A stretch of 64,000 nt of DNA from positions 186,001 through 250,000 of the forward strand of contig NZ_JASJOC010000005.1 in the NCBI RefSeq assembly GCF_030068615.1, read 5' to 3'. This document shows, one piece after another, positions 15,248 to 62,224 of the stretch (its first letter is position 1; every line of letters starts with the position of its first letter). Under the pieces are notes generated by a model that saw only the letters and a list, made by a program, of their open reading frames with translations, searched no databases and was not told the origin of the DNA. The stretch is from Halostagnicola sp. A-GB9-2. GTDB lineage: Archaea > Halobacteriota > Halobacteria > Halobacteriales > Natrialbaceae. A program made the position numbers and the translations under genes.

Positions 15248-15274
15248 GTAGGGTTACCTCTCGCTCTGGTCAAG

Positions 15275-16652: not shown

Positions 16653-16658
16653 AGTCAA

Positions 16659-16687
16659 TTGGTATCACAAACCAACTAATATAATTT
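16659..16687 (-). promoter_or_regulatory. TATA-like box and 5-bp dyad upstream of the short beta-helix gene
   Basis: On the minus strand AATTATATTAGT at about 16676-16687 is TATA-like. Between it and the ATG at 16652 lies the perfect dyad TTGGT-N7-ACCAA (16659-16675). The predicted transcription start falls within or next to this dyad, a common place for archaeal repressor sites. Confidence 0.4.
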
Positions 16688-16905
16688 TTGATTATAGTCA
16701 ACGGTTGCGTAAAACCCCGCGCCAAATGGACAAGAATCGACGAACAAGGTTCTTTCAATCTGGCTTCGAAACTATCGGTTGGACCGGCTCACATACGGAC
16801 CGACAATGGATTCAGCAGGAACTGCTGAGCGGTTTTCTCACTATAAACACTTATGGGGCTGTTGAACGCATCTCAGCATGAGTCTTCGAAACGTGATTTG
16901 AACTT

Positions 16906-18111: not shown

Positions 18112-18112
18112 C

Positions 18113-19150: not shown

Positions 19151-19252
19151 CTCCGCCTCGATTTTTGTCGTCGGGACTACCGGGGGACCGATCCGGTATT
19201 CGAAGCTTCCTAACAGAATACCTATGGGACTCCCGCTCGATGAACAGGACGC

Positions 19253-19558
19253 ATGGCACGGATTGCATTTCATCTGAAGATCGCCGACGGACAGCGAGAC
19301 GCCTACCGAGAAGCCCACGAAAACGTCCCCGAGTGGCTCGAGGAGAGCTACCTCGACTCCGATGCCGGACTCGAGACCTACAGCGTCTTCGAGTCGGACG
19401 GGCACGTCTTCGGATTCATGGAACTCGACGATCCGGAGGCGATTCACGACGTAATGGAAACGAGTGACGCTCAGGCTCAGTGGGCGGAAACGATGGACGG
19501 TATTACGGTCGACGATGACTCCGATCAGTGGATGGACGAAGTCTATCGGATGATTTGA
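19253..19558 (+). CDS. rhaM: L-rhamnose mutarotase
   Basis: This is a compact 101-aa protein of the RhaM/YiiL family, which interconverts alpha and beta anomers of L-rhamnose in the cytoplasm. His22 in YREAHENVP aligns with the catalytic His of E. coli RhaM. The family also shows YSVFE..GHVFGFMELDD, the QWAETM segment, and the C-terminal DEVYRM. The length matches the family (about 104 aa). It lies 102 bases after the LLM gene. This small gene is the strongest marker that the surrounding oxidative block acts on L-rhamnose, although some members also act on other deoxy sugars. Confidence 0.88.
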   Translation: MARIAFHLKIADGQRDAYREAHENVPEWLEESYLDSDAGLETYSVFESDGHVFGFMELDDPEAIHDVMETSDAQAQWAETMDGITVDDDSDQWMDEVYRMI

Positions 19559-21110: not shown

Positions 21111-21281
21111 ACCAGGCAATTGGATGGCTTTCAGATAAAGATATCGTCACCGGCTCTCGAGCGATTCGCCACTACTCGGTTCGCCGAACTTCGCGATTGG
21201 CCGAATCGATCACAATCGGTCACGGTCGCGCCGTCAAGCAAGATTTATCATGTGTCCGTGGGAGTATTAGCTATCGTTACT

Positions 21282-33632: not shown

Positions 33633-33651
33633 TAGTCGTGTGATCTATCGT

Positions 33652-34863: not shown

Positions 34864-34967
34864 GGGCGAAGACCATCGTCTCCCACAGTGTCGATTCATT
34901 TGACCGCGTCCAAACCAGTTACAGACTCGACGGCTGTGACGGTCTGTGCCGTCTAGGCGGAAACGTT

Positions 34968-34991
34968 CACTATTCGTGTTCAACAATAGTG
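34968..34991. terminator. Candidate bidirectional terminator
   Basis: CACTATT-N10-AATAGTG is a perfect 7-bp inverted repeat placed between convergent genes ending at 34863 (GH88) and 34996 (DUF2264). Part of the arm (CTATTCG then GTTCA) recurs at the very end of the DUF2264 gene. There is no long T-run, so the terminator role is tentative. Confidence 0.35.
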
Positions 34992-34995
34992 CTCG

Positions 34996-39673: not shown

Positions 39674-39704
39674 CTGCGTGGTTTTTTTCGGCGACTCAGT
39701 AATA

Positions 39705-39738
39705 CGTGCCGGGTTACCCAACGAGAGTTGCCGGCACG
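39705..39738 (-). promoter_or_regulatory. Structured leader of the GH78 gene (stem, bulge, stem, tetraloop)
   Basis: An 8-bp stem CGTGCCGG/CCGGCACG encloses a 6-base one-sided bulge (GTTACC on the plus strand) and a 4-bp stem CAAC/GTTG with a 4-base loop. A TATA-like CTATAC at about 39766-39771 on the opposite side puts the predicted transcript start just before it. It would form the 5' end of a leader of roughly 65 bases. Its function is unknown: mRNA stability, translation control or an operator. Confidence 0.45.
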
Positions 39739-40384
39739 AATGAGTGTCTGCCGAGACAACTACCGCTATACGCCGACACATCCCTGGGCGGGTAAATCGC
39801 GGCCGAAATCATCCCGTGAACGCCCGACACCTAATCCATCGAGCCGACCCGCGCGACCCTCGAGGCCGACGGCGAGGAAGGAGACGTCGAATCCGGTGTT
39901 CTACACCGATGTGAAACCGGTATTATGAATAGCGCACTGTTGACTCGGCCCGCGGTATAGGAGGCCACTCGAACGCTAATCGACGACGGAGCCACGTCGG
40001 AGAGTCCGTCCGCCGTCTCCGGACGGGCCACTTCGCGTGCTATTACAGTAGTTGTGAGAACATCGCACGAGACGCTCGAAGCCGGCCGAATCTGTTCTTG
40101 AAGCGTTACCGTCTCTCGTTCGTGATAAATAAACATCCGCTGTGAGCGGAGTGACCGACACTCGCATTACACAAGTACCTATGTAATCTCGCAGGGCAGT
40201 GACCACAATTTTGGAAATTCCGGCCGCTATCCCCACGCTACCCCCTCTTTAACGAAAACGAGTCGGTGACGAGCGACGATTAACAGAGAAAATGACATCC
40301 GACCTGACCGGATGAATGCTTATAGATCATGAAAGTTCGACAAAACAGACTTTCGAGAATTGTCTCCGAGCGGTTCCCTCACCT
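39739..40384. other. Intergenic region between divergent GH78 and dehydrogenase genes
   Basis: This is about 650 bp without a recognisable gene. TCCGCT-GTG-AGCGGA at 40136-40150 is a perfect 6-bp dyad with an AT-rich flank (ATAAATAAACA). Open readings on either strand lack family features. Confidence 0.45.
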
Positions 40385-41484: not shown

Positions 41485-41603
41485 GCGGGTTGGTATGGAC
41501 ACCTACTGCGATACCATGATCGCTATTATCACCCGTGAAAGGGAGACGACGAACGCCTCTCTGAACGGGAACACTTTTGGGCGTCTCAACCCCTCACGGT
41601 AGT

Positions 41604-43043
41604 ATGCACCAGCTCAGTGCCACGGGCACATCGTTCCCGGAGAGCGTCTCAGACGTTACGATCGGCTACATCGGCGGCGGTAGTCGAGGATGGGCACACA
41701 CCCTCATCAACGACCTGCTCCAGTGTTCGGACGTCTCGGGGAATGTTGCCCTGTACGACGTCAATTACGAACCGGCCGAACAAAACGCGAAACTCGGCAA
41801 CGAACTGGCGACTCGCGAGGACGTCGTCAGCGACTGGACGTTCGAGGCACACGAGAGCCTTGAGAACGCCCTCGAGGGAGCCGACTTCGTTATCTGTTCG
41901 ATTCAGGATCCTCCGGAGGAGACCTTCGTTCACGATATCGACGTCCCACAGGAGTACGGCTGCTATCAGACCGTCGCCGACACCTGCGGTCCCGGCGGCG
42001 CGGTTCGAGCCCTTCGCGCGATTCCACAATATCGCGAAATCGCCGCCACGGTACGCAAGCAGTGTCCCGACGCGTGGGTGCTCAACTACACGAATCCGAT
42101 GACCGTCTGTACGCGGGCGCTCTATGAAGAGTACCCCGAGATCAACGCCATCGGCCTCTGTCACGAGGTGTTTCACATCCAGGAGATGCTGGCCGAAATC
42201 GCCGAGAAATACGTCGACGAAGCCGAGAACGTCTCCGGGAGCGAAATCGACGTGAACGTCAAGGGCGTCAACCACTTCACGTGGATCGACGAGGCCTCCT
42301 GGTACGGACATGACATCTACCAGTACCTCGATGCGGAACTCGAGGAGCGAAAGCCCCTCCCCGGATTCGATCCCAGCGATTTCGAGGGGGCAGATTACTG
42401 GATCAATCACCACCAGGTCGCGTTCGATCTCTACGACAAATTCGGGCTCCTCGGTGCCGCGGGCGACCGCCACCTCGTGGAGTTCGTTCCGTGGTACCTC
42501 TCGATTGACGACCCCGAGGAAATCCACCGGTGGGGGATTCGGCTAACGCCGAGTTCAGCCCGCGTGGGCGAAAGCGAGGAGGGGCCGGCGAAGATGGAGC
42601 GATATCTCTCCGACGCCGACGAGTTCGAGTTCAAGCAGTCCGGTGAGGAAGCCGTCGACATCATCCGCGCCCTGCAGGGATTGGACTCCATGAAAACCAA
42701 CCTCAACTACCCGAACGTCGGCCAGACGCCGGATCTCCCCGACGGGGCGATCGTCGAGACGAACGTCCTCGTCACCGGCGGCGGCATCAAAACGATCACC
42801 GCCGGAACGCTCCCTCGAGCGGTTCGGAACATGGTCACGACCGCGATCCACAATCAGGAAACGCTCGTCGAAGCCGGCTTCGCCGGCGATCTCGACCTCG
42901 CGTTCGAGGCGTTTCTGAACGAACCGCTCGTCACGCTTTCTCGAGAAGCGGCCCAGGAACTGTTCGCCGAGTTGATCGACCGCGAGCGCGAGTACTTCGA
43001 GGACTACGACCTCGAGACCGCAGCCGTTCTCGAGTCGCGCTAA
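41604..43043 (+). CDS. GH4 glycosidase, alpha-galacturonidase-like
   Basis: This is an NAD- and metal-dependent GH4 enzyme of 479 aa from the ATG at 41604. The dinucleotide motif is GYIGGGSRGW at residues 21-30. The metal-ligand Cys186-His187 pair is in GLCHEVFHIQ, and NYTNPM near 161-166 is the family substrate segment. The CHEV form of the motif is the one I associate with LplD-type alpha-galacturonidases rather than alpha-glucosidases (CHS) or alpha-galactosidases. It would release galacturonate from small pectic oligosaccharides in the cytoplasm, feeding the uronate dehydrogenase-like SDR. An alpha-glucuronidase activity is the alternative. Confidence 0.83.
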   Translation: MHQLSATGTSFPESVSDVTIGYIGGGSRGWAHTLINDLLQCSDVSGNVALYDVNYEPAEQNAKLGNELATREDVVSDWTFEAHESLENALEGADFVICSIQDPPEETFVHDIDVPQEYGCYQTVADTCGPGGAVRALRAIPQYREIAATVRKQCPDAWVLNYTNPMTVCTRALYEEYPEINAIGLCHEVFHIQEMLAEIAEKYVDEAENVSGSEIDVNVKGVNHFTWIDEASWYGHDIYQYLDAELEERKPLPGFDPSDFEGADYWINHHQVAFDLYDKFGLLGAAGDRHLVEFVPWYLSIDDPEEIHRWGIRLTPSSARVGESEEGPAKMERYLSDADEFEFKQSGEEAVDIIRALQGLDSMKTNLNYPNVGQTPDLPDGAIVETNVLVTGGGIKTITAGTLPRAVRNMVTTAIHNQETLVEAGFAGDLDLAFEAFLNEPLVTLSREAAQELFAELIDREREYFEDYDLETAAVLESR

Positions 43044-43787: not shown

Positions 43788-45995
43788 CTAGCCGGAGACG
43801 TTCACGTGATCGTCGTCCTCGTCCCCGTCGACTGCATCGTCCGTAATCGGTTCGCTATCCCAGTACTCGTGATCGTCGTCAACGCGGAAGCAAGCGGTCC
43901 GTTGTACTCCATCCTCGTTACTGAGATCGACCAGTTCCGGTTTCTGGGTTCGACAGGTTTCTCTGGCGTCGGGACAGCGCGTGTGATATCGACAGCCCGA
44001 CGGCATGTTCTTCTGGTCGGGGACGTCGATCGTTCGGATCGGGTTCTCGTCAGGGTCGTCGTCCTGCTCGAGTTCGGGCGTCGCCCAGCGCAACGCCTGC
44101 GTGTACGGATGCTGGGGATTCTGAATGATCTGTTCGGCCGACCCGATCTCGACGAGTTCCCCAAGGTACATGACTCCGATTCGGCCGCCGGTCTTCTCCG
44201 CGAGATACCGGGCGTTCGAGAGGTCGTGCGAGACCGACAGGAACGACGTGTCGAACGCGTCTTGCAGTTCGATCATCAGGTCCATAATGCTCACCCGGAG
44301 GGATACGTCTAAGGCAGACACCGCCTCGTCGGCGAGGATGAGGTCGGGGTTGACCAACATCGCCCTGATGAGCGCGACCCGCTGTTTTTCGCCGCCCGAG
44401 AGCTGGTGTGGATACCGTTCGATGTAATCCTCGGGCGGACTGATCCCGACGTACTCTAACATTGCCAGGATCCGTTCGCGTCTGTCATTGCCGTCAAGGT
44501 CGGGATGCCATCGGTTGAGCGGGGTCGAGAGGATCGATCGAACCCGCTGATGCGAGTTCAACGAACTGCCGGGATCCTGGTGAACGATCTGGAGCGCCCG
44601 GCGAATTTCTTCGTCCTCGAGCGTGCTACTGCCGGAACTTCCCTTCCAGATGTCTCGGTCTTTGTACTCGATTGTCCCGTCCGTCGGTCGCTGGAGGCCG
44701 ACCGCGGTCTTTCCGAGCGTGGTTTTCCCACAGCCGCTTTCGCCCACCAGAACGACCACGTCGTTCTCGTAGATGTCGAACGAAATCCCGTCAACGGCTG
44801 TTACTACGTCGGACTCGCCGAAATCGAGCCAGCCGTCGTTCTCGGATCCGAACTGAACCTCGACGTCCTCGAGCGACACGAGCGGCTCCGCATCGTCCGA
44901 GTGAGAAGCGTTCCGCGTCGCGGGCGAATCATCGGAATTCGACTCCGTAAACGCCCTCTCGAGGTCGTCGATCGACTGCTCCCAGTGATGGCAGTAGACG
45001 TCGTGATTCCGGGAGTCTCCGGCGTCGTACGGACCGGGATCGATTGACTTGCACTGCTCGTCAGCCAGCGGACAGCGAGGATGATACGAACAGCCGGGTG
45101 GAATATTGACCGGATCCGGACTCTCCCCTTCTATCGGGCGCATCTGCTCGAGCGGGGCCGACAGGTTCGGCGTGGCGTTGAGCAAGGCCCGCGTGTAGGG
45201 ATGAGCGGGGCGCTCTAAGATCTCGTCGGCAGGCCCAATCTCGGCAAACTCAAAGGCGTACAGGACGGCTAGCCGATCGGAGAGATCCGCCACCAGCGGC
45301 AGGTCGTGCGTGATAAACACGATCGTAAGATCGTGTTTTTCCTGGATCTCGTTGAGCAACGAGATGATCGATTGTTGCATCAACAGATCGAGCGCGGCCG
45401 TGGGTTCGTCCATCACGAGCATTTCGGGCTCAAGGACGAGGCTCAACGCGATCAACACACGCTGTTTCATCCCGCCGCTTAGCTCGTGGGGATAGGACTC
45501 GAGCATCCGCTCGGGCTCGAGGTACAGATCCTCGAGGAGGTCTTTAGCCCGTTCGATGCCGGCATCGACGTCGTAGTCGTGTGCGCTTAGTGTCTCGACG
45601 AAGTGCGTTCGAACGGACCGAACAGGGTTGAACGAACTCATCGCGCCCTGAAAGACCATCGAAATCTCCTCCCAGCGGAACTGTTTGAGTTCCGACTTCG
45701 AGAGCCCGGTAACGTCTACCGGATCGCCGTCTTCAGGGTGATAAATGACGTCACCGGTCGTCGTACCGGGAGCGGGAACCGCATCGAGCAAGGCCGAGGC
45801 GAACATCGATTTCCCCGACCCACTCTCGCCGATTACACCGAGAATCTCGTTGCGTTCGATATCGATGTTGACCTCGTTGAGGACGCGCGACTCGCCCCGA
45901 TCCATACCGAAGCTGACGGACGTGTCCCGAAGTTCCACGATGGTGTCGGTTCCGGTCGAGTCGACCAGACTCGCATCTGATTCTGATATCGTCAT
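43788..45995 (-). CDS. Fused Opp/Dpp-type ABC ATPase (OppD-OppF in one chain)
   Basis: This is a 735-aa cytoplasmic protein with two complete ABC domains. Domain 1 has Walker A GESGSGKS, signature LSGGMKQR and Walker B MLVMDEP. Domain 2 has GESGCGKT, LSGGEKQR and LILADE. Each ends in an oligopeptide/dipeptide-type Cys-rich tail (CSYHPRCPLADEQC and CRYHTRCPDARETC). Normally these are two proteins. The fusion removes the need for OppD/OppF pairing. It is the last gene of the importer run. Peptide-type importers also carry oligosaccharides in many archaea, which fits this locus. Confidence 0.9.
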   Translation of the reverse strand: MTISESDASLVDSTGTDTIVELRDTSVSFGMDRGESRVLNEVNIDIERNEILGVIGESGSGKSMFASALLDAVPAPGTTTGDVIYHPEDGDPVDVTGLSKSELKQFRWEEISMVFQGAMSSFNPVRSVRTHFVETLSAHDYDVDAGIERAKDLLEDLYLEPERMLESYPHELSGGMKQRVLIALSLVLEPEMLVMDEPTAALDLLMQQSIISLLNEIQEKHDLTIVFITHDLPLVADLSDRLAVLYAFEFAEIGPADEILERPAHPYTRALLNATPNLSAPLEQMRPIEGESPDPVNIPPGCSYHPRCPLADEQCKSIDPGPYDAGDSRNHDVYCHHWEQSIDDLERAFTESNSDDSPATRNASHSDDAEPLVSLEDVEVQFGSENDGWLDFGESDVVTAVDGISFDIYENDVVVLVGESGCGKTTLGKTAVGLQRPTDGTIEYKDRDIWKGSSGSSTLEDEEIRRALQIVHQDPGSSLNSHQRVRSILSTPLNRWHPDLDGNDRRERILAMLEYVGISPPEDYIERYPHQLSGGEKQRVALIRAMLVNPDLILADEAVSALDVSLRVSIMDLMIELQDAFDTSFLSVSHDLSNARYLAEKTGGRIGVMYLGELVEIGSAEQIIQNPQHPYTQALRWATPELEQDDDPDENPIRTIDVPDQKNMPSGCRYHTRCPDARETCRTQKPELVDLSNEDGVQRTACFRVDDDHEYWDSEPITDDAVDGDEDDDHVNVSG

Positions 45996-46077
45996 CTGTA
46001 CACCTCGTTTCGAACGGCCGGTTGATCGTCGGTTCGATCGTGGTCAGTGTCGTGATATTGCTCGTTCATAACGTAGC

Positions 46078-47205
46078 TCACATCTGCGTAACGTTAGTTG
46101 TGTTCGGTTCCGACTCCGGCTCCGATCCCTTGCCGTCGTCGCTTCGCTCGTGTCGCGCTCTCGCACGAGGGTTGAACACTCGGTCGAGGGACTGACCGAG
46201 CAAAACGAGCCCGATCGAGATCCCCGAGATAGCGATCATCGGGACGAGGAGCCAGTGAATCGCGTCTGGGCGATACACGGCACCGGCCCGGTACGCGCTC
46301 TCGAGCATCACGCCCCAGTTCGCGTCCGAGTACGGAAGGATGCCAAGGAAGTACAACGCAACAGCTGCGAAGATGATCCGCCTGGCCGCGTTGACGAGGT
46401 TCACCACGATGTACGGCATGAGGTGTGGCAGGATTTCCTTGCGAAGGAGAGAGATCGTTGGGACATCCATCGCTCTCGAGGCTTCGACGAACGCCTCGCC
46501 TCGGAGGGTAAGTACCTGCGATCGAATCGCCCGCGCGAGCCCCGCCCACGCGGCCGCAGCTAGCAGGACCCCGACGAGCGCCGGATGCTCGGGCTCGAGC
46601 AGGACCGACAGTACGATCACCAGCGGGAGACCCGGGATATTGATGAACACGTCTGTAATAGAGCTCAGGACCGTGTCCACCATTCCGCCCTTGTATCCCG
46701 AAACGAGACCGAAGCCCGTCCCGAGGACGATGGTAAACAGCGCACCCGCACCCATCATCTGCAGGATGGGGACCGTCGAGTAGACAGTCATCGACAGGAT
46801 ATCCTGGCCGGACTGGTCGGTTCCGAGCGGGTGGCTCCAATCTTCGAACGGCCCGACGAGGGACTCACCGTGGGTCGGATGTGTCGGGTCGATCAAGTAC
46901 ACGCCGACGGTTCCTATCAATAAGTACACTACGAGGATCGAAACGCCGACGATCGCGCGCCAATCGTTTCGCATGATCGACCACGGCGTCCACAGGTAAT
47001 CCTTCAGCTTTCGGTCGATTCGATCCCGTCTCGTTTCCTCCACCGTCGCCGTCCGCTCGAATGGCGAATCCACGGTTCCGCCATCACTTCGGAGAATGTC
47101 TTCGACGCTGTCGGGTTTCGTCTCCAAATCACCGCCGCTATCCAACCCGTCCGAAGTGCGTCCGTCGAATTGATTGGTATCCTCAGAACGCTTCACGGTT
47201 CTCAC
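46078..47205 (-). CDS. Opp/Dpp-type ABC permease, DppC-like
   Basis: This is the second permease of the importer, 375 aa with a long charged N-terminal extension of about 80 residues before the first membrane helix (AIVGVSILVVYLLIG). The GTG start overlaps the upstream permease gene by 23 bases. The EAA-like loop reads VEASRAMDVPTISLLRKEILPHLMP. HPTHGESLVGPFEDWSHPLGTDQSGQDILS is the family's N-terminal extracellular segment. The C-terminus is hydrophilic and acidic. Confidence 0.9.
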   Translation of the reverse strand: MRTVKRSEDTNQFDGRTSDGLDSGGDLETKPDSVEDILRSDGGTVDSPFERTATVEETRRDRIDRKLKDYLWTPWSIMRNDWRAIVGVSILVVYLLIGTVGVYLIDPTHPTHGESLVGPFEDWSHPLGTDQSGQDILSMTVYSTVPILQMMGAGALFTIVLGTGFGLVSGYKGGMVDTVLSSITDVFINIPGLPLVIVLSVLLEPEHPALVGVLLAAAAWAGLARAIRSQVLTLRGEAFVEASRAMDVPTISLLRKEILPHLMPYIVVNLVNAARRIIFAAVALYFLGILPYSDANWGVMLESAYRAGAVYRPDAIHWLLVPMIAISGISIGLVLLGQSLDRVFNPRARARHERSDDGKGSEPESEPNTTNVTQM

Positions 47206-48178
47206 CCCCTGCGCGCGGATCGATTTTTCCGTACGTGAGATCTGCGATCAGTAACGCGATCACGACCGCGATCGTGATGACAGTAAAGGCCCCCATCATT
47301 AGCGGGTAATCCCGAGCTCGAACCGCCTCGATCAGGTACCAGCCCATGCCCCGATAGACGAAGATTTCCTCGAGCACGACGGCACCGCCGAACATGCTCC
47401 CTATCGCAATCATGAGGCCCGTGTACATCGGAAGGATGGCGTTCCGAGCGACGTAGTGGATCGCGATGGTCGGGTCCGAAAGGCCCCGTAGCCGCGCGAC
47501 CCGTAGATAATCGGAACCGAGGACGCGGATGCTGTTTCCACGCATGGTTAGTGCGGCCATCCCGGAGGTAACGAACATCGAGAAGACGGGGAGCATCGCG
47601 TGGTGGACGATCCCCGTGAGATAGAGGAAGTTGAACCCAGGTTCGACGCCCTCCGGTTGCCTTCCGCCGGTCGGGAACCAGTTAAGACGATAGGCAAAGA
47701 TCGTCAACAGCACCAGTGCGAGGACGTAAAACGGGATCGAGGTGATGATCGTCGCATAGCCCGTAAGCGCCGTATCGAACTTGCCGCCTTCCCAGTAGGC
47801 CATAACCGCACCGATCGCGATTCCGGCGGTAAATCCGAGGAAGACCGCCCAGCTCATGACGAATAGCGTCCACGGGATGGCGATAGCCAACACCTCCTCG
47901 ACCGGCATGTTCATGCTCATCGACCGACCGAGGTCACCCTGCATGAACGCCGTCATATAATCGTAGTACTCGATGTACAGGGGATCTTCCGGGTTGATGT
48001 TCATGTACAGTTCAGCCATTTCGTACGCTTGCGCGGGATCGTCCAGGTCCGGCCCGACTTCGACCAGAAAGTAGTCGATCGGATTCCCGGGCATAAAACG
48101 CGTGAGGACGAACGTCAGCGTCATCACGGCCCAAACCGTGAAGACAGACTGCCCTAATCGCCTAATTCTCCAGTCCAT
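47183..48178 (-). CDS. Opp/Dpp-type ABC permease, DppB-like
   Basis: This is the first permease subunit, 331 aa. The N-terminus MDWRIRRLGQSVFTVWAVMTLTFVLTRFMPGNP is the hallmark of DppB/OppB proteins. The membrane loop LRVARLRGLSDPTIAIHYVARNAILP contacts the ATPase, and GAVVLEEIFVYRGMGWYLIEAV follows. It lies 69 bases downstream of the binding-protein gene and overlaps the DppC-like gene. A long extracytoplasmic loop (about residues 40-95) is longer than in bacterial DppB. Confidence 0.9.
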   Translation of the reverse strand: MDWRIRRLGQSVFTVWAVMTLTFVLTRFMPGNPIDYFLVEVGPDLDDPAQAYEMAELYMNINPEDPLYIEYYDYMTAFMQGDLGRSMSMNMPVEEVLAIAIPWTLFVMSWAVFLGFTAGIAIGAVMAYWEGGKFDTALTGYATIITSIPFYVLALVLLTIFAYRLNWFPTGGRQPEGVEPGFNFLYLTGIVHHAMLPVFSMFVTSGMAALTMRGNSIRVLGSDYLRVARLRGLSDPTIAIHYVARNAILPMYTGLMIAIGSMFGGAVVLEEIFVYRGMGWYLIEAVRARDYPLMMGAFTVITIAVVIALLIADLTYGKIDPRAGGENREAF

Positions 48179-48247
48179 TGTGGATATGAGTGGTATTCTG
48201 TATCATCGGATTTAAAAATGTCTATCCGGCGGCTCGGTACCGTCGAT

Positions 48248-50104
48248 CTATTGCTCGTACGGAATGAGATCCGCGTCTTCTAACTTCAACAGGTTGTACT
48301 CCGCGACGCGGTTGTCGATGATCGAGTCCGGACCCTCCACGTGCCAGTGGTCCGCTCGAATGCCACCGTGGTCGAGTCCGGCGACGACTTCGAACTGCGG
48401 TAACACCTGGTTGTACATCCAGGTCAACCGCTGAAGGTGAACGTCGTCGTCACCCGTCCGGTGCCACTCGCCGAGTTCGTCGCCGAGGACGATGTCTTCG
48501 GTTCCGTCCGAACCGCTCGGATCGCCGATGGGCATCGGAACCTCGAACGAGTCGTTGTACCAGTCGACGTGCATCAGTTCCGAATACCAGTTCCAGACGG
48601 CATCGATCCACATGATCCCTCGAACCGAGAAGCCGCCACCGTCGTCCAACAGGATGTCGTACTCGCCGTTCAGGCGTCGATTCCCGTAGGTTGCCTCGTC
48701 GACGATGTTGAGTTCGGGATCGAGCCCGAACTCCTCGAGTTCGTAATTGATGGCGTTCAATCCGTTCCGCTGAATCCCCGACCCGGTGTTCGCCATGAGG
48801 ATGATTTCGACGGTCTCACCGTCCTCATCGTACCAGAGTTCGTCTCCCTCGTCGTACTCGTAGCCGGCGGCCTCCATATGGTCGTGTGCCGCGTCGAGAT
48901 CGGTTTCGTAATGATCGTAGCCGTCGAGGTCGACGATCCCATCGTTGGCGGCCTCCTCGGTGAGCCAGCATGGCGGGAGGTCGATCGGTTCGTACGAATC
49001 ACCCGGTGCGGTTTGTGCGACCGAACTACGGTCGACGGCGTACGCGATGGCTTTCCGGAAGTTCCGATCGTCGGTGTAGGGATCGTACGCACCATCATCC
49101 GCCGCCGAGGCGGGAATATCGTAATCCCCGAAATTGAACAGGACGGAGTGGTAGTGCAGGTAATCCCCGTTGATTTTGTGATAGTCACCCAACTGTTGTT
49201 CGATGTCGGCGGGAGCAGGGAGCGTCACGGTGATACCATCCACCTGCCCCTCCTGGAAGGCGATGTGCTGGTCCTCGTACTGTTCCCAGACGTAATCGGT
49301 GAACAGGACGTTCTCCGCGTTTGGATGCCCTTCGTACAGCGTGGCGTGCATGGTGTTATCGCCAATATCGTCGAGTTCGAAGACGCCGTTTCCGATCGCT
49401 TCCTCCTGATTCCACTCGAGGAGATCGTTCGCCACCTGTTCTTGCTCGTCCCCGTCGGTGTTTTGTAGTTCCTCAAGCCACTCTGCGTACGTCCGGTCGT
49501 CGCCCAGGTCGGCTTTGACGATGTTGAGGTCGTTGCCGAGGGCGTTCGCCATGATGAACTGCTCGCCAAACTCGTCGTGGAGGTGGAACCGAATCATGTG
49601 ATCGTCGACTGCTTCGGCCTCGTCGACGAAGGCGTTCGGATCCTCGTCATCGGATAAGATGCGTCCGAGTTCGAGGTGGAGGTTCCACTGAGTCGCGTAG
49701 TCCTGAGCGACGACGGGGTCTCCGTTGTGCCACTCGTAGTCGTCGCGAAGTTCCATCTCGAGAACGTCGCCGTCCATCTGCCAGTCCTCGGCGATCACCC
49801 CTCGCGTTTCATCTGCGCTGTGAAGGTAGACGACGTACGGATCGTACAACAATCCCGGCGGATCGAAATCCGACATCGAATTGTTCGGATCGTACGGACT
49901 CCAGTGAGCCGTCTCGAATTCGTAGGCCCCGCGATGGTTCGCGACCCGAAACTCCTGCTCGACGCGCTCTTCGACCGGATCACCGACCGGACCGTCGCCG
50001 TTCGTCGCACAACCCGCGAGTGCGACAACCCCACCTGCGATCCCCGTCTTAAGGGCAGTTCGTCTGCTAATTGGACTGCTCAACCCATTGCTATCAGTTG
50101 GCAT
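48248..50104 (-). CDS. Family 5 extracellular solute-binding lipoprotein
   Basis: This is a secreted substrate-binding protein, 618 aa from the ATG at 50104. An ATG at 50119 would add five residues. The Tat signal ISRRTALKTGIAGGVVALAGC ends in a lipobox cysteine. The SBP_bac_5 fold is recognisable by FDPPGLLYDPYVV, DVLEMELRDDYEWHNGDPV, FRKAIAYAVDRS and the central cleft region. It is first in the run of four importer genes. The ligand is not predictable from sequence. Its placement next to PL22 and GH4 makes oligogalacturonide or rhamnogalacturonan fragments likely, but peptides remain possible. Confidence 0.9.
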   Translation of the reverse strand: MPTDSNGLSSPISRRTALKTGIAGGVVALAGCATNGDGPVGDPVEERVEQEFRVANHRGAYEFETAHWSPYDPNNSMSDFDPPGLLYDPYVVYLHSADETRGVIAEDWQMDGDVLEMELRDDYEWHNGDPVVAQDYATQWNLHLELGRILSDDEDPNAFVDEAEAVDDHMIRFHLHDEFGEQFIMANALGNDLNIVKADLGDDRTYAEWLEELQNTDGDEQEQVANDLLEWNQEEAIGNGVFELDDIGDNTMHATLYEGHPNAENVLFTDYVWEQYEDQHIAFQEGQVDGITVTLPAPADIEQQLGDYHKINGDYLHYHSVLFNFGDYDIPASAADDGAYDPYTDDRNFRKAIAYAVDRSSVAQTAPGDSYEPIDLPPCWLTEEAANDGIVDLDGYDHYETDLDAAHDHMEAAGYEYDEGDELWYDEDGETVEIILMANTGSGIQRNGLNAINYELEEFGLDPELNIVDEATYGNRRLNGEYDILLDDGGGFSVRGIMWIDAVWNWYSELMHVDWYNDSFEVPMPIGDPSGSDGTEDIVLGDELGEWHRTGDDDVHLQRLTWMYNQVLPQFEVVAGLDHGGIRADHWHVEGPDSIIDNRVAEYNLLKLEDADLIPYEQ

Positions 50105-50246
50105 CGAGCACACATTCATGATAGACCCATATATATTTTCCTATCAACTTGTTCCGATGACGTTTTGCAACACCGAGGAATCTCCAGCCGAGAAAGACGT
50201 TGCTGGAAACAAACTTATTTCTCTGTCGATTCGGATAGTCTACTCA

Positions 50247-50462: not shown

Positions 50463-51659
50463 TCAGGACACGACTTCGAGATCCTCGAGCCTCGGTAGAT
50501 CCTCGAGGTCGTCGGGGACATCGACGACGTAAACATCGCTTTCGTTTCCCCCACGCGAACTATCGAACGCGATCCTCGAGCCGTCGGGGCTCAGGCGACC
50601 GTGCGGGTGGACATCGTCATCGCCCGTCCAGTCGTGAGTCGCGAGCGCCCACGGCCCGTCGTAGCCATCGGCGTCGGCGTTCCACCGCCAGAGAAGCAGA
50701 TGCGGAACGCCGCGGTGAGTGCCGTCCCCGACGATCAGATCGCGGGTGATGCTGTGAAAGTGAGTGTAGATGTCCGGCGCGGGCCACTCGCGCCGATCGG
50801 TGCCGTCGTATCGAACCTGTCCGAAGAACGCGTCGGGATCGTCGCGGGAACCGCGCCAGCCGTGGTAGCCGACGTGTTCGCCGTCGGCGAGCCAGTGCTC
50901 ATGGCCGACAGCCTCGTCCGCATCTGTCGGCCGAACCTGCCAGGTCTCGTCAGTCTCGAGATTCAACCCCCAGATCCTGTCTGCCTCCTCCCATGGCCCT
51001 TCCTCACAGTAGGTGATCAACTCCGGATTCGTCGGCGACGTATTGACGTGGGTCAGCCAGCGCTCGGTATCGACGTGAACACTGGGCTCGGCCGATCCGT
51101 CCTCGATCGGCATCGAAATTACCTTCGAACGCGGTCCCGCTTCCATCCGCGCGTTCATCCAGACCTCCCTGTTTTCGGGATCTCGTTCGTCGTCGAGGTC
51201 GAGCGCCTCGGACAGCGCGACGACGGCGCGGGTCCCGTCGGCCGTCCCGCCGAGGTGTCCGCCGTAGTATCCCTCGGGCCGCTCGTAATGAGTGGCAATC
51301 TCGAGCGTCTCGAGGTCGAGCGAAACCAGCCGTCGGCCACACCAAAACAGCGCGGTATTTCGATCGGGGAACCGCGTCGTTCCGTCGATCTCCTGCGGGA
51401 GATCGGTCAACTGCGTGAGTAAACCGGACTCGAGATCGACCGAATAGAGGTCTCGAGACCCGTCACGATCCGAGCGAAACAGCAGCCGGCGGCCATCGTC
51501 ATAGAACGCCGGCTCGGTGAAGTAGAGGTGGCGGTTCGTGGTGTTCGGATAGTTCGTGAACCGTCGAACGGTCGTCCCAGTGATTGGATCTTCGTACGTC
51601 TCGGCTTCGGCCGGCCAGTGTCGGCCAGCTTTCGGGCCCTGCTGAAGGATCGTCTCCAT
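50463..51659 (-). CDS. ogl: PL22 oligogalacturonate lyase
   Basis: This is a cytoplasmic seven-bladed beta-propeller lyase of 398 aa from the ATG at 51659. The PL22 features are TNRHLYFTEPAFYDDGRRLLFRSDRDG split across the first blade, WLTHVNTSPTNPELITYCEEGPW, the metal-site histidines in VGHEHWLADG and HGWRGS, and IYTHFHSITRD. It cleaves di- and tri-galacturonates to 4-deoxy-5-ketouronate. It is the last gene of a minus-strand run that begins with GH115. No signal peptide is present. The ketouronate produced would need KduI/KduD-type enzymes, none of which was recognised here. Confidence 0.9.
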   Translation of the reverse strand: METILQQGPKAGRHWPAEAETYEDPITGTTVRRFTNYPNTTNRHLYFTEPAFYDDGRRLLFRSDRDGSRDLYSVDLESGLLTQLTDLPQEIDGTTRFPDRNTALFWCGRRLVSLDLETLEIATHYERPEGYYGGHLGGTADGTRAVVALSEALDLDDERDPENREVWMNARMEAGPRSKVISMPIEDGSAEPSVHVDTERWLTHVNTSPTNPELITYCEEGPWEEADRIWGLNLETDETWQVRPTDADEAVGHEHWLADGEHVGYHGWRGSRDDPDAFFGQVRYDGTDRREWPAPDIYTHFHSITRDLIVGDGTHRGVPHLLLWRWNADADGYDGPWALATHDWTGDDDVHPHGRLSPDGSRIAFDSSRGGNESDVYVVDVPDDLEDLPRLEDLEVVS

Positions 51660-51877
51660 TGGATGTTCGATGACAGAGGGCGGGTAAAAAGATTCGCCTC
51701 TGGTGTGCACACGTCGAACCCTGTCAATCGGGGCCCCGTCTCGTCCCCGACCAGTCCTCGACAATTCCAATTTTTGCCGTCCAGATTACCTGGAACGACT
51801 CGAGACCACGGAGCCGGAACGCCGGCTATCGCCTCGGAGACCGAACGACTGCTATCGACTAACCGTTCGTTCGGGGC

Positions 51878-55113: not shown

Positions 55114-58044
55114 CTACCGGTCCAGTCGACGATCGCGCGTCTCGAGCGGACCGAGAGGCGATCGACGCACATCGTCTTCGGTGTAGACGATCACTCGATC
55201 GAAGACGACGTCGGGATCGACCGCATACAGCGACAGCACGTGTCTATCGGACCCGCTCAGTCCGTGATCGGTCGTCGAACGGACGCAGGATCTGAGGACG
55301 TTTCGCTGCCACTCCGGGTCGTGTTCGCCCCCGTTCGCGTCGAAGTCGACTATCGTCGGGTCGGCGTCGTCGATCGCGACCGCGTACCGGTGGGGCGTCG
55401 AGTCCGACGACGCGTGGGTCGGCAACAACTGTACCTCGACGCGAACGTCGCCCGCACTCGCCTCGAACACGTACTCGAGTCGGGCCGCTCGCTCGCGAAC
55501 GTCAGTCGCATCGACAGTGCCAGCACCGGCACCGATTCGCGGCCCGTCGATCGGACGACTGGCCATCGCAGTCCCGGTCGTTCGGCTCAGCCCGTCGACC
55601 GGCTTCCAGCGCGTCGCACCTTGCACGAGTTCCGTCGGGTGATCCGCCTCGATAGCGACCCGGCCGTTCGATTCGACGAAGACCGGTCGCTGATCCGGTT
55701 CAGAGGAGGACAAAGATTCGGCTCGAGAATCCGGCGCCGACGACGTTCGCGGCCGGATCGGTACTTCGACCTCGAGTTCGCGTCCGGCACCCTCGATCCG
55801 AATTCGGCCCGTCGTCTTCGAATCGGGAGCTGCCTCCCAGTCGATAGCCACGCGGAGCCGTCGATCGCCGTCGAACGCTCCCGACGAGTGCTCGAGGTCG
55901 ATCCACTCCTCAGCTGTCGCCGTCCACTCGATAGTTCCCGTTCCGCGGTTGTAACAGTCGACGAATCGACAGCGATCGACGCCCTGAACGAACGCTGGGA
56001 GCCGCCGTCGGCGCGGACCCGTTCCGGCGACCCCGGACGAGCCCTCAACGGCGACCTCGAGCGTCGGCCCCTGTTCTTCGGTCACGCCCGCAGTCGCCGG
56101 CTGGTCGAACACCGGGAGATCGCGCGGACTCGCGGACATCATTCCTCGCCACTTCCCGTCCGAAGAGGCGTTGTACCGCTCGGTCTCGGCGGCGACGCGC
56201 TCGAGTGCCGCTCGCGACCGCCGCGCGTAGTTCGTTGCGCTCGTTCTCCCCTGTCCGGCGTAGAGGCGACTCCGCATCGCCTCGAGAGCCGCCTCGTTCA
56301 TCGCCCGCGCACACCGGACCGGATAGCCGACGAGGTGGAAAAACGCCGTTCGGAAATGCTCGGGGAGTGTTTCGTATAGCTCCGTCGCCGTTTCTTCGAT
56401 CCGTTCGTAGGCCTCGAGCCGTCGCCGAGCCTCGTCACCGTAGTGGATCGCGCTGAACTCGGGTTCGTTTTTCTCCGTGTTCGGATATACGCCGTTCCAG
56501 CCGACGTGTTCGGGTTTGCGGGCGAGCGCGAGTCGATAGTACTCACAGAGCACGTCGGCGATTTCCGCCGCGTGGCTCTCCCCGAACTCGCGGGCGGCCC
56601 ACTCCCTCAGCCACTCCCGTGCCGACCGTTCTCCGACGCCGTCGATATCCCAGGCCAACTCGAGGAAGTACTCGGTTTCTTTCTCCGCCGGCTTGAGATC
56701 CCCGACGTTCGCGATCCACAGCGTCTCGGCTCCGTGGTGGTACGCCCGTCGCATCTCCTCGCGGATCAGCGCCGGCGGAACCGAACAAAGCCACTGGTGG
56801 TCGTGAGGACGCCCCCAGTAGGAGAGGTGGTAGTAGACACCGTGACCGCCGCTTTGCTCCCGCTTTGCTTTCGTCGGGAGCCGTCGAAGGTAACCGAAGT
56901 TGTCGTCGGGCCAGACCACACAGACGTCATCTGGGATCTCGAGGCCGTTACGGTAGAGTTCAAGCGTCTCCTTGTACGGGCAAAACGCCTGTGGAACGTC
57001 CGCGACATCGGGTTCGAGAGTCTCCTCGAGCAACTCGCGCTGGTCGTCGATAACCCGCTGGAGCAGGTCGACGCGCTCCTCGAGGGTGTCCCCGCCGGGC
57101 ATACCGGAGTCGTGGATCCCGCGCATACCGATCGTGAAGATGTTTTCTCGGCCAGCGACTTCTTCGACGCGTTCGGCCCAGTACTCTCGGACCGCCTCGG
57201 CGTTAGTCTCGTAGTTCCACTCGCCTCGGCTGTCCGTCTCCCACTCGTCGACGTTGTTTCGGTGCATCGGCTCGCAGTGGGACGTGCCGACGATGATTCC
57301 GTACCGGTCGGCGGCGTCGCGGTTCCCGTCACACCGGTAGAAGGCTTTCGTGCCATCGTGCATCGCCGGCCAGATCGTATTCGCCTTGAGCCGCAAAAGG
57401 AGTTCGAACACCCGCTCGTAGGTCTTCGGACCGATTCCGTCGGGCGTCTCCGGATCGTACGTTTGTTGGGCCCACTCGCGAATCCCAAAATCCTCGTCGT
57501 TGATGAAGATGCCACGGTAGCTGACCGATGGAGGTCCTGCCTGCTCGATGCCCCTCGTCGCATAAAGTTGCTCGCACTCGTCAGTCGGAACGTCTCCCCA
57601 CCAGTACCACGGCGAGACGCCGATTCGCTTCGACAGTTCGTAGATTCCGTAGGCCGTCCCGCGCGAATCGCTTCCTGCGATCACCAGCGCTTCATCCACG
57701 TCTTGCGGTTCTTCGCGGGCCCCGTCCCCGACGACCCCGAGAAGGAAGCTCTCGGTCTCCTCCTCGAGTCCGTGGTCGGCTACGATCCGGTCGACGTTTC
57801 GGTCGAATCCATCGTGAACTCCGTACGTCCCGACGAGAATCGCACGTTCCCCGAGGCCGTCGAACCCGCGACGACAGTTCGGTCGGTGCCCCGTAACGCG
57901 CTCGATGTCGTCTCGAAGGTCGCGCGACGCAATTTCGACGACCGGTTCGGCGGCGACGTATCGAATCGGTGCCACGGACTCTGCGACCAGCGTCATCGCG
58001 TCCGCTCTGCGCTCCTCGAGGATCGAAATCCGGTTCGTGTCCAT
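55114..58044 (-). CDS. GH115 alpha-glucuronidase
   Basis: This is a large 976-aa cytoplasmic hydrolase (no signal peptide). GH115 features are seen in order: the N-terminal alpha/beta domain (VIAGSDSRGTAYGIYELSKRIG), the catalytic barrel with SVSYRGIFINDEDFGIREWAQ, NTIWPAMHDG, GTSHCEPMHRNNVDEW and WNYETN, then VVWPDDNFGYLRRLP and YHLSYWGRPHDH. The C-terminal beta-sandwich follows (residues about 780-976). It removes 4-O-methyl-glucuronate or glucuronate side groups from internal sugars of xylan or arabinogalactan. A TATA-like ACTATTAG about 24 bases upstream suggests a leaderless transcript leading the five-gene run down to PL22. Confidence 0.93.
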   Translation of the reverse strand: MDTNRISILEERRADAMTLVAESVAPIRYVAAEPVVEIASRDLRDDIERVTGHRPNCRRGFDGLGERAILVGTYGVHDGFDRNVDRIVADHGLEEETESFLLGVVGDGAREEPQDVDEALVIAGSDSRGTAYGIYELSKRIGVSPWYWWGDVPTDECEQLYATRGIEQAGPPSVSYRGIFINDEDFGIREWAQQTYDPETPDGIGPKTYERVFELLLRLKANTIWPAMHDGTKAFYRCDGNRDAADRYGIIVGTSHCEPMHRNNVDEWETDSRGEWNYETNAEAVREYWAERVEEVAGRENIFTIGMRGIHDSGMPGGDTLEERVDLLQRVIDDQRELLEETLEPDVADVPQAFCPYKETLELYRNGLEIPDDVCVVWPDDNFGYLRRLPTKAKREQSGGHGVYYHLSYWGRPHDHQWLCSVPPALIREEMRRAYHHGAETLWIANVGDLKPAEKETEYFLELAWDIDGVGERSAREWLREWAAREFGESHAAEIADVLCEYYRLALARKPEHVGWNGVYPNTEKNEPEFSAIHYGDEARRRLEAYERIEETATELYETLPEHFRTAFFHLVGYPVRCARAMNEAALEAMRSRLYAGQGRTSATNYARRSRAALERVAAETERYNASSDGKWRGMMSASPRDLPVFDQPATAGVTEEQGPTLEVAVEGSSGVAGTGPRRRRLPAFVQGVDRCRFVDCYNRGTGTIEWTATAEEWIDLEHSSGAFDGDRRLRVAIDWEAAPDSKTTGRIRIEGAGRELEVEVPIRPRTSSAPDSRAESLSSSEPDQRPVFVESNGRVAIEADHPTELVQGATRWKPVDGLSRTTGTAMASRPIDGPRIGAGAGTVDATDVRERAARLEYVFEASAGDVRVEVQLLPTHASSDSTPHRYAVAIDDADPTIVDFDANGGEHDPEWQRNVLRSCVRSTTDHGLSGSDRHVLSLYAVDPDVVFDRVIVYTEDDVRRSPLGPLETRDRRLDR

Positions 58045-58769: not shown

Positions 58770-61028
58770 ATGACAGAAGACAGCAATGATCAGGTTGCAA
58801 AGAGAGACAATCGAATGGTTGCAAACGGTGCCGAGCAACCAGAGCGAACCGCAAATACGGACAGGAGCGGTCTCGACGATGGATCACTTTCGATGGGGCG
58901 ACGGGGAGCGCTGGCCGTGCTCGGAGCGACAGGGCTCGGCGCCGCACTCGCTGGGAGTACAACCGCTACCCGGGACCCATCGACCGCCCCAGAGACCGGA
59001 AATCAACCCTGGTACAACTGGGACGGAGACGTTGATGCTGCCGATAACGGGCTATACAACCTTGACAGACTGCAGACGAACCATCACCACACCCCGGCTC
59101 GAGAGCCCGACGTGATCGTCTGGGAGAACGACGAGGGCTGCTATCAGGTGGATACCGACGAAACAACCGTCTACAGCGGCGAGGAGTACGTCGAAGCGAT
59201 TCAGACCGCCGTCGACAGCCTGAGCGAGGATCGGACGGTAAAAGAACGAGTGCTTGTTACCGCGTCCGGAACGATCGGGCCCGTCGACGAACTGACCCAG
59301 ATCGTTCTGCCGAGCTATACGATCCTCGACGTCGCAGGAACCATAAGAGTCGAAGACGACGGCGATCAGCCGCTCGTGATTCCGATTCGAGCGTTCGACG
59401 AGGAGGAAATCGAAATCCCGAGACTAACGATTACCGGGAATCCGCGGTTTGCGGTCTGGCTGCAGGATAGCAACTCGATCAAACTCGGCGACATCGACAT
59501 CCGGTTCGACGACACCGACGGATTCGTAAACTACTGGGAGGTCGACGAACCCGATTGGCCGCCGACATCGTTCGATCCGGACGCCAGTCGAGCGGAAATC
59601 CTGAACGATCCGGGGTGGGTCGGCGACTTCTTCGAGGCCGTCAGGATCGACGCCCGCGCTCGAGAGGACCTCGCTTCGGACGTGTTCATCAGTTCGGTCT
59701 ACGTCGAGGGCGGTCGACACCACGCCGTCGAAACGTACGACGTAGAGCGCGTCGTCGTCGACCAGGTAATCGGCGTCGACATGGGAGGCTCCGCTGTCAT
59801 CCTGAACGAAACCGAGAATGCGGTAGTAAACAGCGTCGTCGGCGAGAATCCCGAGTCGCCAACCTGGTACGCGACGTTCCGCTGTGCCAACGGCTGTGAA
59901 AACGTCTCCGTCGGACAGGTCGTCAGTCGCGACGCCCCGCGCGGAATGCACCTCACGACCGAGTCGAACGAGATTACGGTCGGCGAAGTCAATATCATCG
60001 GCGCCCGGTTCAACGGGATCGTCGTCGACGACGTCGAGAACATCACGATTCAGGGCGGCCTCGTCAAGAACGTCGTCAACGAAGCCGTCACCTCGACGGC
60101 GGACGGATTCTCCCTCTCGAATCTCCACGTTGTCGACGACCTCTCCGAGGCGGAACGAGACGAAATTACCCTTCCCGATGGTGACGGTGCACCGGACGAT
60201 CCGACCCAGACACACGGAATTCGCTTTTTCGGACAGAACGGCCGCATCGTCAACAACGACGTTCGCAACGCGGGAACGAAAGCGGACATCGAGGTCGAAG
60301 CACTGAACACGATCGTCAGGGATAATCTCGGCGGTGGAATCGCATCGGGAACGGTCACGCTCTCGTCAGGCGCCGACGAAGCCGCACGGGTCACCGATAT
60401 CCACGGTCGCCCCAATGCCGCGTTCGACGTCCGAGCCGAACTTGAGTCCGTTCCGTCCGAGCCGACCGCCTGGACGCACTACTTCGAGTGGGCCGGCGAC
60501 GGCTGGGACCTCGTCTTCGAGTGGCAAACCGACCCCGGCGAGGCGGTCGAACTCTCCTATATCGTCGACAAGACCCAGGCGGGAGACGGCGACCCCGAAC
60601 TCGATCCGATCGAGCCCGGCACCTATCGAATCAACGCTGGACACACTGGAATGCCTCTGACAGTTTCGGACGGCACCCTCGAGATGGATGACTGGGACGA
60701 CGGTGACGACCAGCGCTGGATCCTCGAGGAGGACGGCGATCACTATCGCCTCGAGCTCGAGGCGACCGGTGAGGTTCTCGAGGTCGAAGATGGCGAAATC
60801 GAAAACGGATCGAACGTGCAAGTCGCCGAGGACAGCGGTGGGGATCACCAGCGCTGGGACATCGATCCGATCTTCACTCCCACCGGTGAGTTCCGCTATT
60901 CCATGCACCCGGCCGGTGAAGACGTAGGGTTAGACGTCGAAGGCGGCAACGAGGAGCCGGGAACGGACGTGCTCCTGTGGAGCCACACCGGCGTTGCACA
61001 CCAGCAGTTCGAGTTCGACGGACTGTAA
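58770..61028 (+). CDS. Tat-exported right-handed parallel beta-helix protein with C-terminal ricin-type lectin domain
   Basis: This is the largest of the four paralogues, 752 aa. A polar N-terminal lead of about 40 residues precedes the Tat signal GRRGALAVLGATGLGAALAG. The GNQPWYNWDGD segment, VDSLSEDRTVKE, LPSYTILDVAGTI and about ten helix rungs follow, with H317-H318 in HHAVETYDV and YATFRCANGCEN downstream. After the WDLVFEWQTDPG...SYIVD module, residues about 605-752 form a ricin B-type beta-trefoil with QRWIL, QRWDI and HQQFEF repeats. An in-frame ATG at residue 16 is an alternative start. It probably binds and perhaps cleaves an acidic plant polysaccharide at the cell surface. No activity is proven by sequence. 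Confidence 0.8.
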   Translation: MTEDSNDQVAKRDNRMVANGAEQPERTANTDRSGLDDGSLSMGRRGALAVLGATGLGAALAGSTTATRDPSTAPETGNQPWYNWDGDVDAADNGLYNLDRLQTNHHHTPAREPDVIVWENDEGCYQVDTDETTVYSGEEYVEAIQTAVDSLSEDRTVKERVLVTASGTIGPVDELTQIVLPSYTILDVAGTIRVEDDGDQPLVIPIRAFDEEEIEIPRLTITGNPRFAVWLQDSNSIKLGDIDIRFDDTDGFVNYWEVDEPDWPPTSFDPDASRAEILNDPGWVGDFFEAVRIDARAREDLASDVFISSVYVEGGRHHAVETYDVERVVVDQVIGVDMGGSAVILNETENAVVNSVVGENPESPTWYATFRCANGCENVSVGQVVSRDAPRGMHLTTESNEITVGEVNIIGARFNGIVVDDVENITIQGGLVKNVVNEAVTSTADGFSLSNLHVVDDLSEAERDEITLPDGDGAPDDPTQTHGIRFFGQNGRIVNNDVRNAGTKADIEVEALNTIVRDNLGGGIASGTVTLSSGADEAARVTDIHGRPNAAFDVRAELESVPSEPTAWTHYFEWAGDGWDLVFEWQTDPGEAVELSYIVDKTQAGDGDPELDPIEPGTYRINAGHTGMPLTVSDGTLEMDDWDDGDDQRWILEEDGDHYRLELEATGEVLEVEDGEIENGSNVQVAEDSGGDHQRWDIDPIFTPTGEFRYSMHPAGEDVGLDVEGGNEEPGTDVLLWSHTGVAHQQFEFDGL

Positions 61029-61180: not shown

Positions 61181-62224
61181 TTACGACGGACCGGATTCGA
61201 CTGCGTCGATGACACCGCGAAGGTAGCCGACGGTGTAGCCACGGCCCCGGTGACGCCAGTCGGTATCACCTGCCATTTCGGGGACGTGATCGGGGATAAC
61301 GACGCCGTCGTATCCGATCTCATCGAGCGTTTTGATGACCTCTGCCGGGTCGAAATTGCCCGCATCGACGAACGTCTCGTGGAAGTTCGGCACGGTCCCG
61401 ACGACGTCGCGAAAGTGAACGAACCCGATCTGGTCGCGCTCGCCGAAAATGCGAACCACGTCGGTCACGTCTTCACCTAACTGCGAGAAACAGCCGAGAC
61501 AAAGTTTGAGACTGTGGATATCGCTCGGGACCGAATCCATCGCACGTTCGAAATTCTCCACGTTCCGGCAGAGACGCGGGATACCACACATCGACTCGAG
61601 ACCCGGCGGATCGACCGGATGGAGCGCCAACTCGACGCCGGCGGATTCGGCGACGGGGAGTACTTCCTCGAGAAACGATTCGTAGTTGTCCCAGAACTCG
61701 TCCTCGGTGTAGACCCGATCGAGACCCGGCGCGAGTTCGTCCGGGTCCTCGAGCGCGTCGTAATCGAACGCCGTGCCGCGTGCGCCGCCGCGAAGTTCGG
61801 CCGTTCCGGTCCGCATCGGAACGACGCCGCGCGGATTCCACTGATAACCCAGAATCGGAATGTCCGCCTCGCCGAGGTTTCGGACCAGCGTCGTGATTTG
61901 CTCGAGCGCCTCGGTTTTCCCATCCCGGTCGAACATAATGTCGCCGTACAACGAGTAGGGTAACGACTGGATCCCGATCAGCGCGAGGTCCGATGCTTCG
62001 ACGCGGGCTTTCGCCGCCTCGAGTTCTCTCACCGACGGAATCGCGTTTCGGCCGACCTCGAGGGTCGCACCCGCGTCGCGGTCGTTGAATTCGTCGGGCT
62101 CCTCCTCGACGTCGGCGTGATCGACAAAGACGTCCGTCGCACCCAACTGGCGGATGTACTGAAGCCGCTCGTCCGTCAATGAGCGCGTTCGAACCCCGAC
62201 TCGGATGGTCGTCTCAGTAGTCAT
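61181..62224 (-). CDS. uxuA: Mannonate dehydratase
   Basis: This is a 347-aa TIM-barrel enzyme of the UxuA family. The metal ligands are His in ELALHPVDPP, Cys in LKLCLGCFSQLGED, His in GFVHFRDVVG and Asp/His in VIPDHVPEM. The signature FHETFVDAGNFD and the C-terminal GRGYTVGYLRGVIDA are intact. It dehydrates D-mannonate to 2-keto-3-deoxygluconate in the glucuronate isomerase pathway. It is about 45 residues shorter than E. coli UxuA, as in many archaeal and Gram-positive members. It is divergent from dgoD, sharing a 256-bp promoter region. No glucuronate isomerase (UxaC) or mannonate oxidoreductase (UxuB) was recognised here. Confidence 0.9.
   Translation of the reverse strand: MTTETTIRVGVRTRSLTDERLQYIRQLGATDVFVDHADVEEEPDEFNDRDAGATLEVGRNAIPSVRELEAAKARVEASDLALIGIQSLPYSLYGDIMFDRDGKTEALEQITTLVRNLGEADIPILGYQWNPRGVVPMRTGTAELRGGARGTAFDYDALEDPDELAPGLDRVYTEDEFWDNYESFLEEVLPVAESAGVELALHPVDPPGLESMCGIPRLCRNVENFERAMDSVPSDIHSLKLCLGCFSQLGEDVTDVVRIFGERDQIGFVHFRDVVGTVPNFHETFVDAGNFDPAEVIKTLDEIGYDGVVIPDHVPEMAGDTDWRHRGRGYTVGYLRGVIDAVESGPS

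Follow-up and report, generated by a model that had tools for sequence, protein, structure and literature searches.

A family of exported beta-helix proteins as candidate extracellular polysaccharide lyases in haloarchaea and bacteria

Four Tat-exported proteins, P0001 to P0004, are encoded within the 64,000-nucleotide stretch of the Halostagnicola sp. A-GB9-2 genome analysed here (contig positions 186001-250000 of a 4.68 Mb genome; referred to below as the window). We regard the chances as evenly poised that these are secreted beta-helix enzymes which depolymerise uronate- and rhamnose-containing glycans outside the cell, most likely by metal-independent beta-elimination. Computation supports the export motif, the predicted fold, the clustering of conserved residues on a single sheet and the linkage to genes for rhamnose, uronate and rhamnogalacturonan utilization.

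The initial annotation of this region had proposed a family of four homologous proteins. When P0002 was used to search its own whole genome, the sole matches were the four loci (E 0 to 1e-30), and alignment gave 39-54% identity between P0001 and the other three. All four open reading frames are present, each with the expected twin-arginine motif by inspection and regular expression; the same procedure revealed no lipobox in any of them. The GNQPWYxW segment and the WDLVFEWxxDPG module were each recovered in three of the proteins, as originally described. Two further segments had been ascribed to all four: VDSL..R holds for three, P0003 having LDSL instead, and LPSYTxLD is matched exactly by P0001 and P0004, with LPSYTVVD in P0002 and VPSHTRLD in P0003. 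The minus-strand location of P0003 and P0004 had not been given, nor had the C-terminal ricin-type lectin domains of P0001 (Pfam E 5e-22) and P0003 (E 6e-15). Scans of the four proteins against Pfam and NCBIfam returned no enzyme family above cut-off, in agreement with the earlier view, and no strong match to a non-carbohydrate family. Apart from the lectins, Pfam gave generic beta-helix matches, above cut-off in P0004 alone, together with sub-threshold NosD and GH28 matches; NCBIfam gave zero matches above cut-off. Public annotation of family members reads ‘right-handed parallel beta-helix repeat-containing protein’ or ‘RICIN domain-containing protein’, and our literature search found no paper describing the family.

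The AlphaFold models of P0002 and P0004 are right-handed beta-helices, the fold that had been anticipated. In an alignment of 62 archaeal and bacterial members, R275, H301, E304, N329, Y350 and R354 (P0002 numbering) are invariant, while R374 is Arg in 59 sequences and Lys in three. Y306 is kept in 58 of the 62, and position 277 is Asp in 56, Ser or Gln taking its place in some of the others, P0002 among them; the cluster contains only one invariant acidic residue. The same residues were found in 12 further or overlapping orthologues. When mapped by DSSP onto the predicted model, the conserved residues lie within the short strand of five consecutive rungs, or immediately ahead of it, and so form part of one sheet. 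Active sites of beta-helix lyases, GH28 and AlgE enzymes lie on that same sheet. The model and the alignment together predict a fully conserved, active-site-like patch. Two features sought as marks of a secreted CAZyme are present, namely an export signal (motif inspection and regular expression) and a set of conserved polar residues grouped on one face (prediction and alignment).

The genes surrounding the family members, identified by Pfam, are consistent with the proposed linkage to rhamnose, uronate and rhamnogalacturonan utilization (Table 1). P0001 sits between GH115 and UxuA, P0002 between the LUD/Fe-S and FAA-hydrolase genes of the rhamnose pathway, and P0003 between a sugar ABC transporter and aldehyde dehydrogenase. 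In total, the window encodes two GH88-type hydrolases and three enolase-superfamily proteins. Inspection revealed no evident signal peptide in the recognised glycosidases of the window, which leaves the four beta-helix proteins as the exported candidates; they are its only polysaccharide-active candidates with evident export signals. A sulfated, ulvan-like substrate was considered and set aside, since no sulfatase is present in the window and the nearest one, elsewhere on the contig, is some 100 kb distant; sulfatases do adjoin the family genes of some relatives. The window also carries two Zn-dependent alcohol dehydrogenase genes, at 14213-15247 (-) and 40393-41484 (+), which share 84% protein and 83% DNA identity.

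Table 1. Family members and neighbouring carbohydrate-related genes in the window.
Feature	Position	Strand	Description or basis
P0001	58770..61028	+	Tat signal, GNQPWYxW segment, beta-helix core, WDLVFEW module, C-terminal ricin-type lectin
P0002	10321..12039	+	Tat signal, GNQPWYxW, beta-helix core, WDLVFEW module; no lectin; AlphaFold pLDDT 89.4
P0003	3539..5653	-	Layout as P0001/P0002, with C-terminal ricin-type lectin
P0004	15399..16658	-	Short form: Tat signal and beta-helix only; AlphaFold pLDDT 96.0
Carbohydrate ABC transporter permeases and ATPase	27..3085	+	Pfam
Aldehyde dehydrogenase and LUD/Fe-S protein	5826..10179	+	Pfam
FAA hydrolase, amidohydrolase, Zn-ADH, rhamnonate dehydratase-like MR_MLE, luciferase-like, rhamnose mutarotase	12181..19558		Pfam
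DHDPS-like aldolase (-) and GH88 unsaturated uronyl hydrolase (+)	20181..22346		Pfam
GH42 beta-galactosidase	25944..27944	+	Pfam
Second GH88-type (+) and DUF2264 (-)	33640..36822		Pfam
GH78 alpha-L-rhamnosidase	36923..39781	-	Pfam
GH4 glycosidase	41577..43043	+	Pfam
Opp-type oligomer ABC importer with binding protein	43788..50119	-	Pfam
PL22 oligogalacturonate-lyase-like, no visible export signal	50463..51770	-	Pfam; N-terminus inspected
GH115 alpha-glucuronidase-like	55114..58044	-	Pfam
UxuA mannonate dehydratase-like	61181..62224	-	Pfam

GH88 and GH105 enzymes need 4,5-unsaturated substrates. The statement that the region lacks a recognised secreted lyase extends to the genome as a whole, in which we found no match to PL1, PL9 or PL11; for PL9 the search was made with PF22842, and the Bacillus subtilis control was positive. 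Among these three lyase families, then, the genome holds no other exported lyase. Its one GH28 gene lies on another contig and has no evident export signal. That contig region (G000:C36:24001-43000) is a second uronate-type cluster, in which the signal-less GH28 is accompanied by an Opp-type importer, an enolase-superfamily dehydratase and a DHDPS-like gene. The fully conserved, active-site-like patch suggests that the four proteins are probably the missing extracellular cutters.

From these observations we infer the following scheme, in which the elimination chemistry, the roles of individual residues, catalysis itself and the substrate are all putative. The exported enzymes would cut the polymer outside the cell by metal-independent beta-elimination. 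R275, R354 and R374 would bind and neutralise the uronate carboxylate, H301 and Y350 would serve as base and acid, and E304 and N329 would orient both. Unsaturated oligomers would then enter via the ABC systems, and cytoplasmic finishing would fall to the GH88/GH105, PL22-like, GH78, GH4 and GH115 enzymes and to the rhamnose and uronate pathways. A candidate substrate is rhamnogalacturonan-I or a similar pectic or gum-like polymer, although a single substrate for all four proteins is unlikely because the contexts of the paralogues differ. P0001, which adjoins GH115 and UxuA, may be specialised on a glucuronate-bearing part and P0004 on the rhamnogalacturonan backbone set, with P0003 perhaps working alongside polygalacturonase-type genes.

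Gene contexts were also compared among related organisms. GH115 adjoins or lies close to the P0001-type orthologue in each of four cases, the window included, and UxuA is nearby in three; P0003-type orthologues adjoin GH28 and a sugar ABC transporter, and P0004-type orthologues adjoin GH4, an esterase, GH78 and either PL11 or PL22. On pHTUR01 of Haloterrigena turkmenica, three family genes are clustered with two PL11 genes, a GH42-type beta-galactosidase, GH4, a GDSL esterase, GH78, PL22, DUF2264, GH115 and mannonate dehydratase; two PL11 genes have been reported in this organism (PMC3102087). Halostagnicola larsenii and Halomontanus rarus have similar clusters, PL11 included. In Evansella, three copies lie beside a GH88-family hydrolase, GH35 and a sensor/AraC regulator pair. 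Among 61 relatives, the family is present in six of seven PL22 genomes (Fisher P 3e-6) and five of six PL11 genomes (Fisher P 5e-5), and in a wider sample of 195 genomes of the order the link is weaker, PL22 occurring in four of 14 family genomes (P 8e-5); all of these P values are too small because the genomes share ancestry.

Two observations on the relatives' clusters concern other proteins or modules. A second Tat-exported type (L033:14677-16728 (-), L037:2830-4929 (-) and L124:7619-9112 (-)) has the N-terminal GNQPWYxW segment in common with the family, though not the core, scoring below 5 bits against the family profile. The first two of these proteins gave no Pfam match, and the type could be another uncharacterised exported family. 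In addition, one haloarchaeal family member (L013:946-2904) ends in an apparent dockerin-type calcium-binding repeat, which Pfam did not recognise at E 0.001.

A profile scan of GTDB genomes, which detected at least 80 family loci and so sets a lower bound on the extent of the family, placed it in Natrialbaceae, Haloarculaceae, Haloferacaceae and other haloarchaea. Among the matches listed were more than 20 haloarchaeal species, at least about 50 Actinomycetota (Streptomyces, Micromonospora, relatives of Actinoplanes and others), Evansella and Verrucomicrobiota. Evansella vedderi has three copies. In a tree built by a quick method and rooted at its midpoint, a long-form clade contains P0001-P0003 and is nearly all haloarchaeal, with two verrucomicrobial rows, and a short-form clade unites P0004 with Actinomycetota and Evansella (Bacillota). 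The separation of the clades implies that the window has three long paralogues and one distinct short form. It is the long form that carries the GNQPWYxW and WDLVFEW modules, and the core does without them. Lectin, LamG or galactose-binding modules are attached to different family members. Sequence searches found no phage relatives, the viral fold matches being confined to the general beta-helix tailspike group, and profile matches to designed Pizza propellers were discarded as low-complexity noise.

On comparison with Pfam and NCBIfam, these proteins probably constitute a CAZyme family that is new although its fold class is known; a CAZy number may already have been given to it. More specifically, and with somewhat less than even confidence, we propose that the archaeal and bacterial members together form a new family of polysaccharide lyases, in which an AlgE-like beta-helix bears a metal-independent Arg/His/Tyr/Glu site and which in haloarchaea would initiate extracellular breakdown of rhamnogalacturonan-type or glucuronate-containing glycans through substrate-specific paralogues. 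In favour of a lyase are the invariance of the cluster in 62 sequences, the uronan-active enzymes among the fold neighbours, the module attachments, the gene linkage and the genome's lack of PL1, PL9 and PL11. Several findings count against it. The likeness to AlgE is one of fold only, the AlgE catalytic residues not being kept. The presence of PL11 in the same cluster of H. larsenii, H. turkmenica and Halomontanus means that another lyase is not obligatory there, and that the family is not simply a stand-in for a missing one. PL22 is found in only four of the 14 family genomes of the wider sample. Streptomyces members (L065-L111) occupy a recurring housekeeping neighbourhood with no carbohydrate cluster around them; by inspection, the neighbours include alanine racemase, NAD(P)HX epimerase, tsaD/tsaE, acpS and glmS-like genes. 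Natronoglomus mannanivorans AArc-m2/3/4 carries both the family and PL11, although no growth on pectin or rhamnogalacturonan was observed (PMC9726719). Finally, similar beta-helices act as adhesins (PfbA) and tailspikes. Overall, the original alternatives of extracellular depolymerase or glycan receptor are partly supported.

Uronate-glycan genes are present in haloarchaeal genomes, but it has proved difficult to demonstrate that these organisms grow on pectin or rhamnogalacturonan (PMC9726719, PMC12343721). The question becomes directly testable with a defined secreted family that offers seven residues for mutation. Furthermore, a conserved unnamed secreted protein of many Streptomyces and Micromonospora belongs to the same family, and the function of many genes could thus be assigned from a single assay.

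The solved structures closest to the two models provide the setting in which other activities must be weighed. For both, the top matches are AlgE6 and AlgE4 (Z 35-38, rmsd 2.2-2.7 A over 317-333 residues). At about 35 and 38, these exceed phi29 gp12 (30 and 34), and below them lies a broad plateau near Z 29 of lyases, fructotransferases, tailspikes and polygalacturonases. The initial annotation had looked to pectic lyase and GH28 folds; the models bear out the beta-helix, but its nearest folds are AlgE C5-epimerases, with PL6 and GH28 types further down. The lower matches include the epimerase/lyase 8ja4, K5 lyase, PL6, AlgG and RbmB. GH28, GH91, phage tailspike hydrolases and the PfbA adhesin also appear in the list.

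This list makes room for a glycoside hydrolase or transglycosidase of GH28/GH91 type, in which E304, with D277 or another acid, would hydrolyse a rhamnosyl-uronate or galacturonosyl bond. We think this unlikely, although E304 is invariant, Asp predominates at position 277 and GH28 genes adjoin some members. The second acid is replaced in some proteins, P0002 included, and three Arg clustered with His and Tyr are seen more typically where the chemistry concerns a carboxylate. GH28 polygalacturonases and rhamnogalacturonases resemble the family in fold and pectic context, but the best score against PF00295, that of P0004, was 17 bits against a gathering cut-off of 22.9, and the catalytic motifs are absent (GxGHG and RIK in 0/62 sequences, NTD in 4/62); membership of GH28 was therefore rejected.

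It is still less probable that the proteins are non-catalytic glycan-binding proteins, secreted or on the surface, whose conserved face and lectin modules keep polysaccharide near the cell. The ricin-type lectins in two of the four, the shared fold of the PfbA adhesin and the lack of a match to a known catalytic family would suit such a role, but seven polar residues near-invariant from archaea to actinobacteria, with or without a lectin, exceed the usual need for binding. In the proposed lyase, three basic residues with one His and one Tyr fit carboxylate neutralisation and proton shuttling.

AlgE4 and AlgE6, together with 8ja4, provide the closest solved folds of P0002 and P0004. They share the right-handed beta-helix of the A-module, and the conserved cluster of the family lies on one sheet, as is understood for the AlgE active site. 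Unlike these enzymes, to which identity is about 16%, the family has different conserved residues, and the DPH[ED] catalytic motif of AlgE/AlgG occurs in none of the 62 sequences, so membership of the AlgE C5-epimerases was rejected. In profile alignment to AlgE4 (a query matching 2pyg over residues 1-377 save for a single mismatch near the end), the residue-by-residue register did not converge, and an equivalence with Tyr149/His154 of AlgE4 drawn by eye was abandoned because rung counting placed it one rung off. With no DPHE and no fixed register, the link of fold is not a functional assignment. A uronate C5-epimerase or epimerase/lyase that modifies the polymer for cutting by others, as AlgE acts on alginate, is thus improbable despite the top structural match and a His/Tyr/Arg cluster suited to proton abstraction at C5, the more so as the gene context is catabolic rather than biosynthetic.

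Other lyases offer further points of comparison. PL6, PL1, PL9 and PL31 enzymes are likewise secreted right-handed beta-helices with a uronate context, but the four proteins have no Pfam match to them, and the 62 sequences show no invariant Asp set resembling a calcium site. PL1 membership was rejected as no PF00544 match was found in the four proteins and the vWiDH and DxKxxxxVTxS motifs occur in 0/62 sequences, and PL9 membership as hmmscan of the four gave no match to PF22842. PL11 rhamnogalacturonan lyase, which shares gene clusters with the family in Halostagnicola larsenii and Haloterrigena turkmenica, belongs to an unrelated Pfam family (RGL11_C/FG-GAP). The precedent for the proposed chemistry is the fucoidan lyase FdlA, likened here by description rather than by sequence: its substrate differs, being a marine fuco-glucuronomannan, but it is a beta-helix lyase of a uronate-containing polymer which employs Tyr, His, Arg and Lys and whose activity metal ions do not stimulate (PMC9410043).
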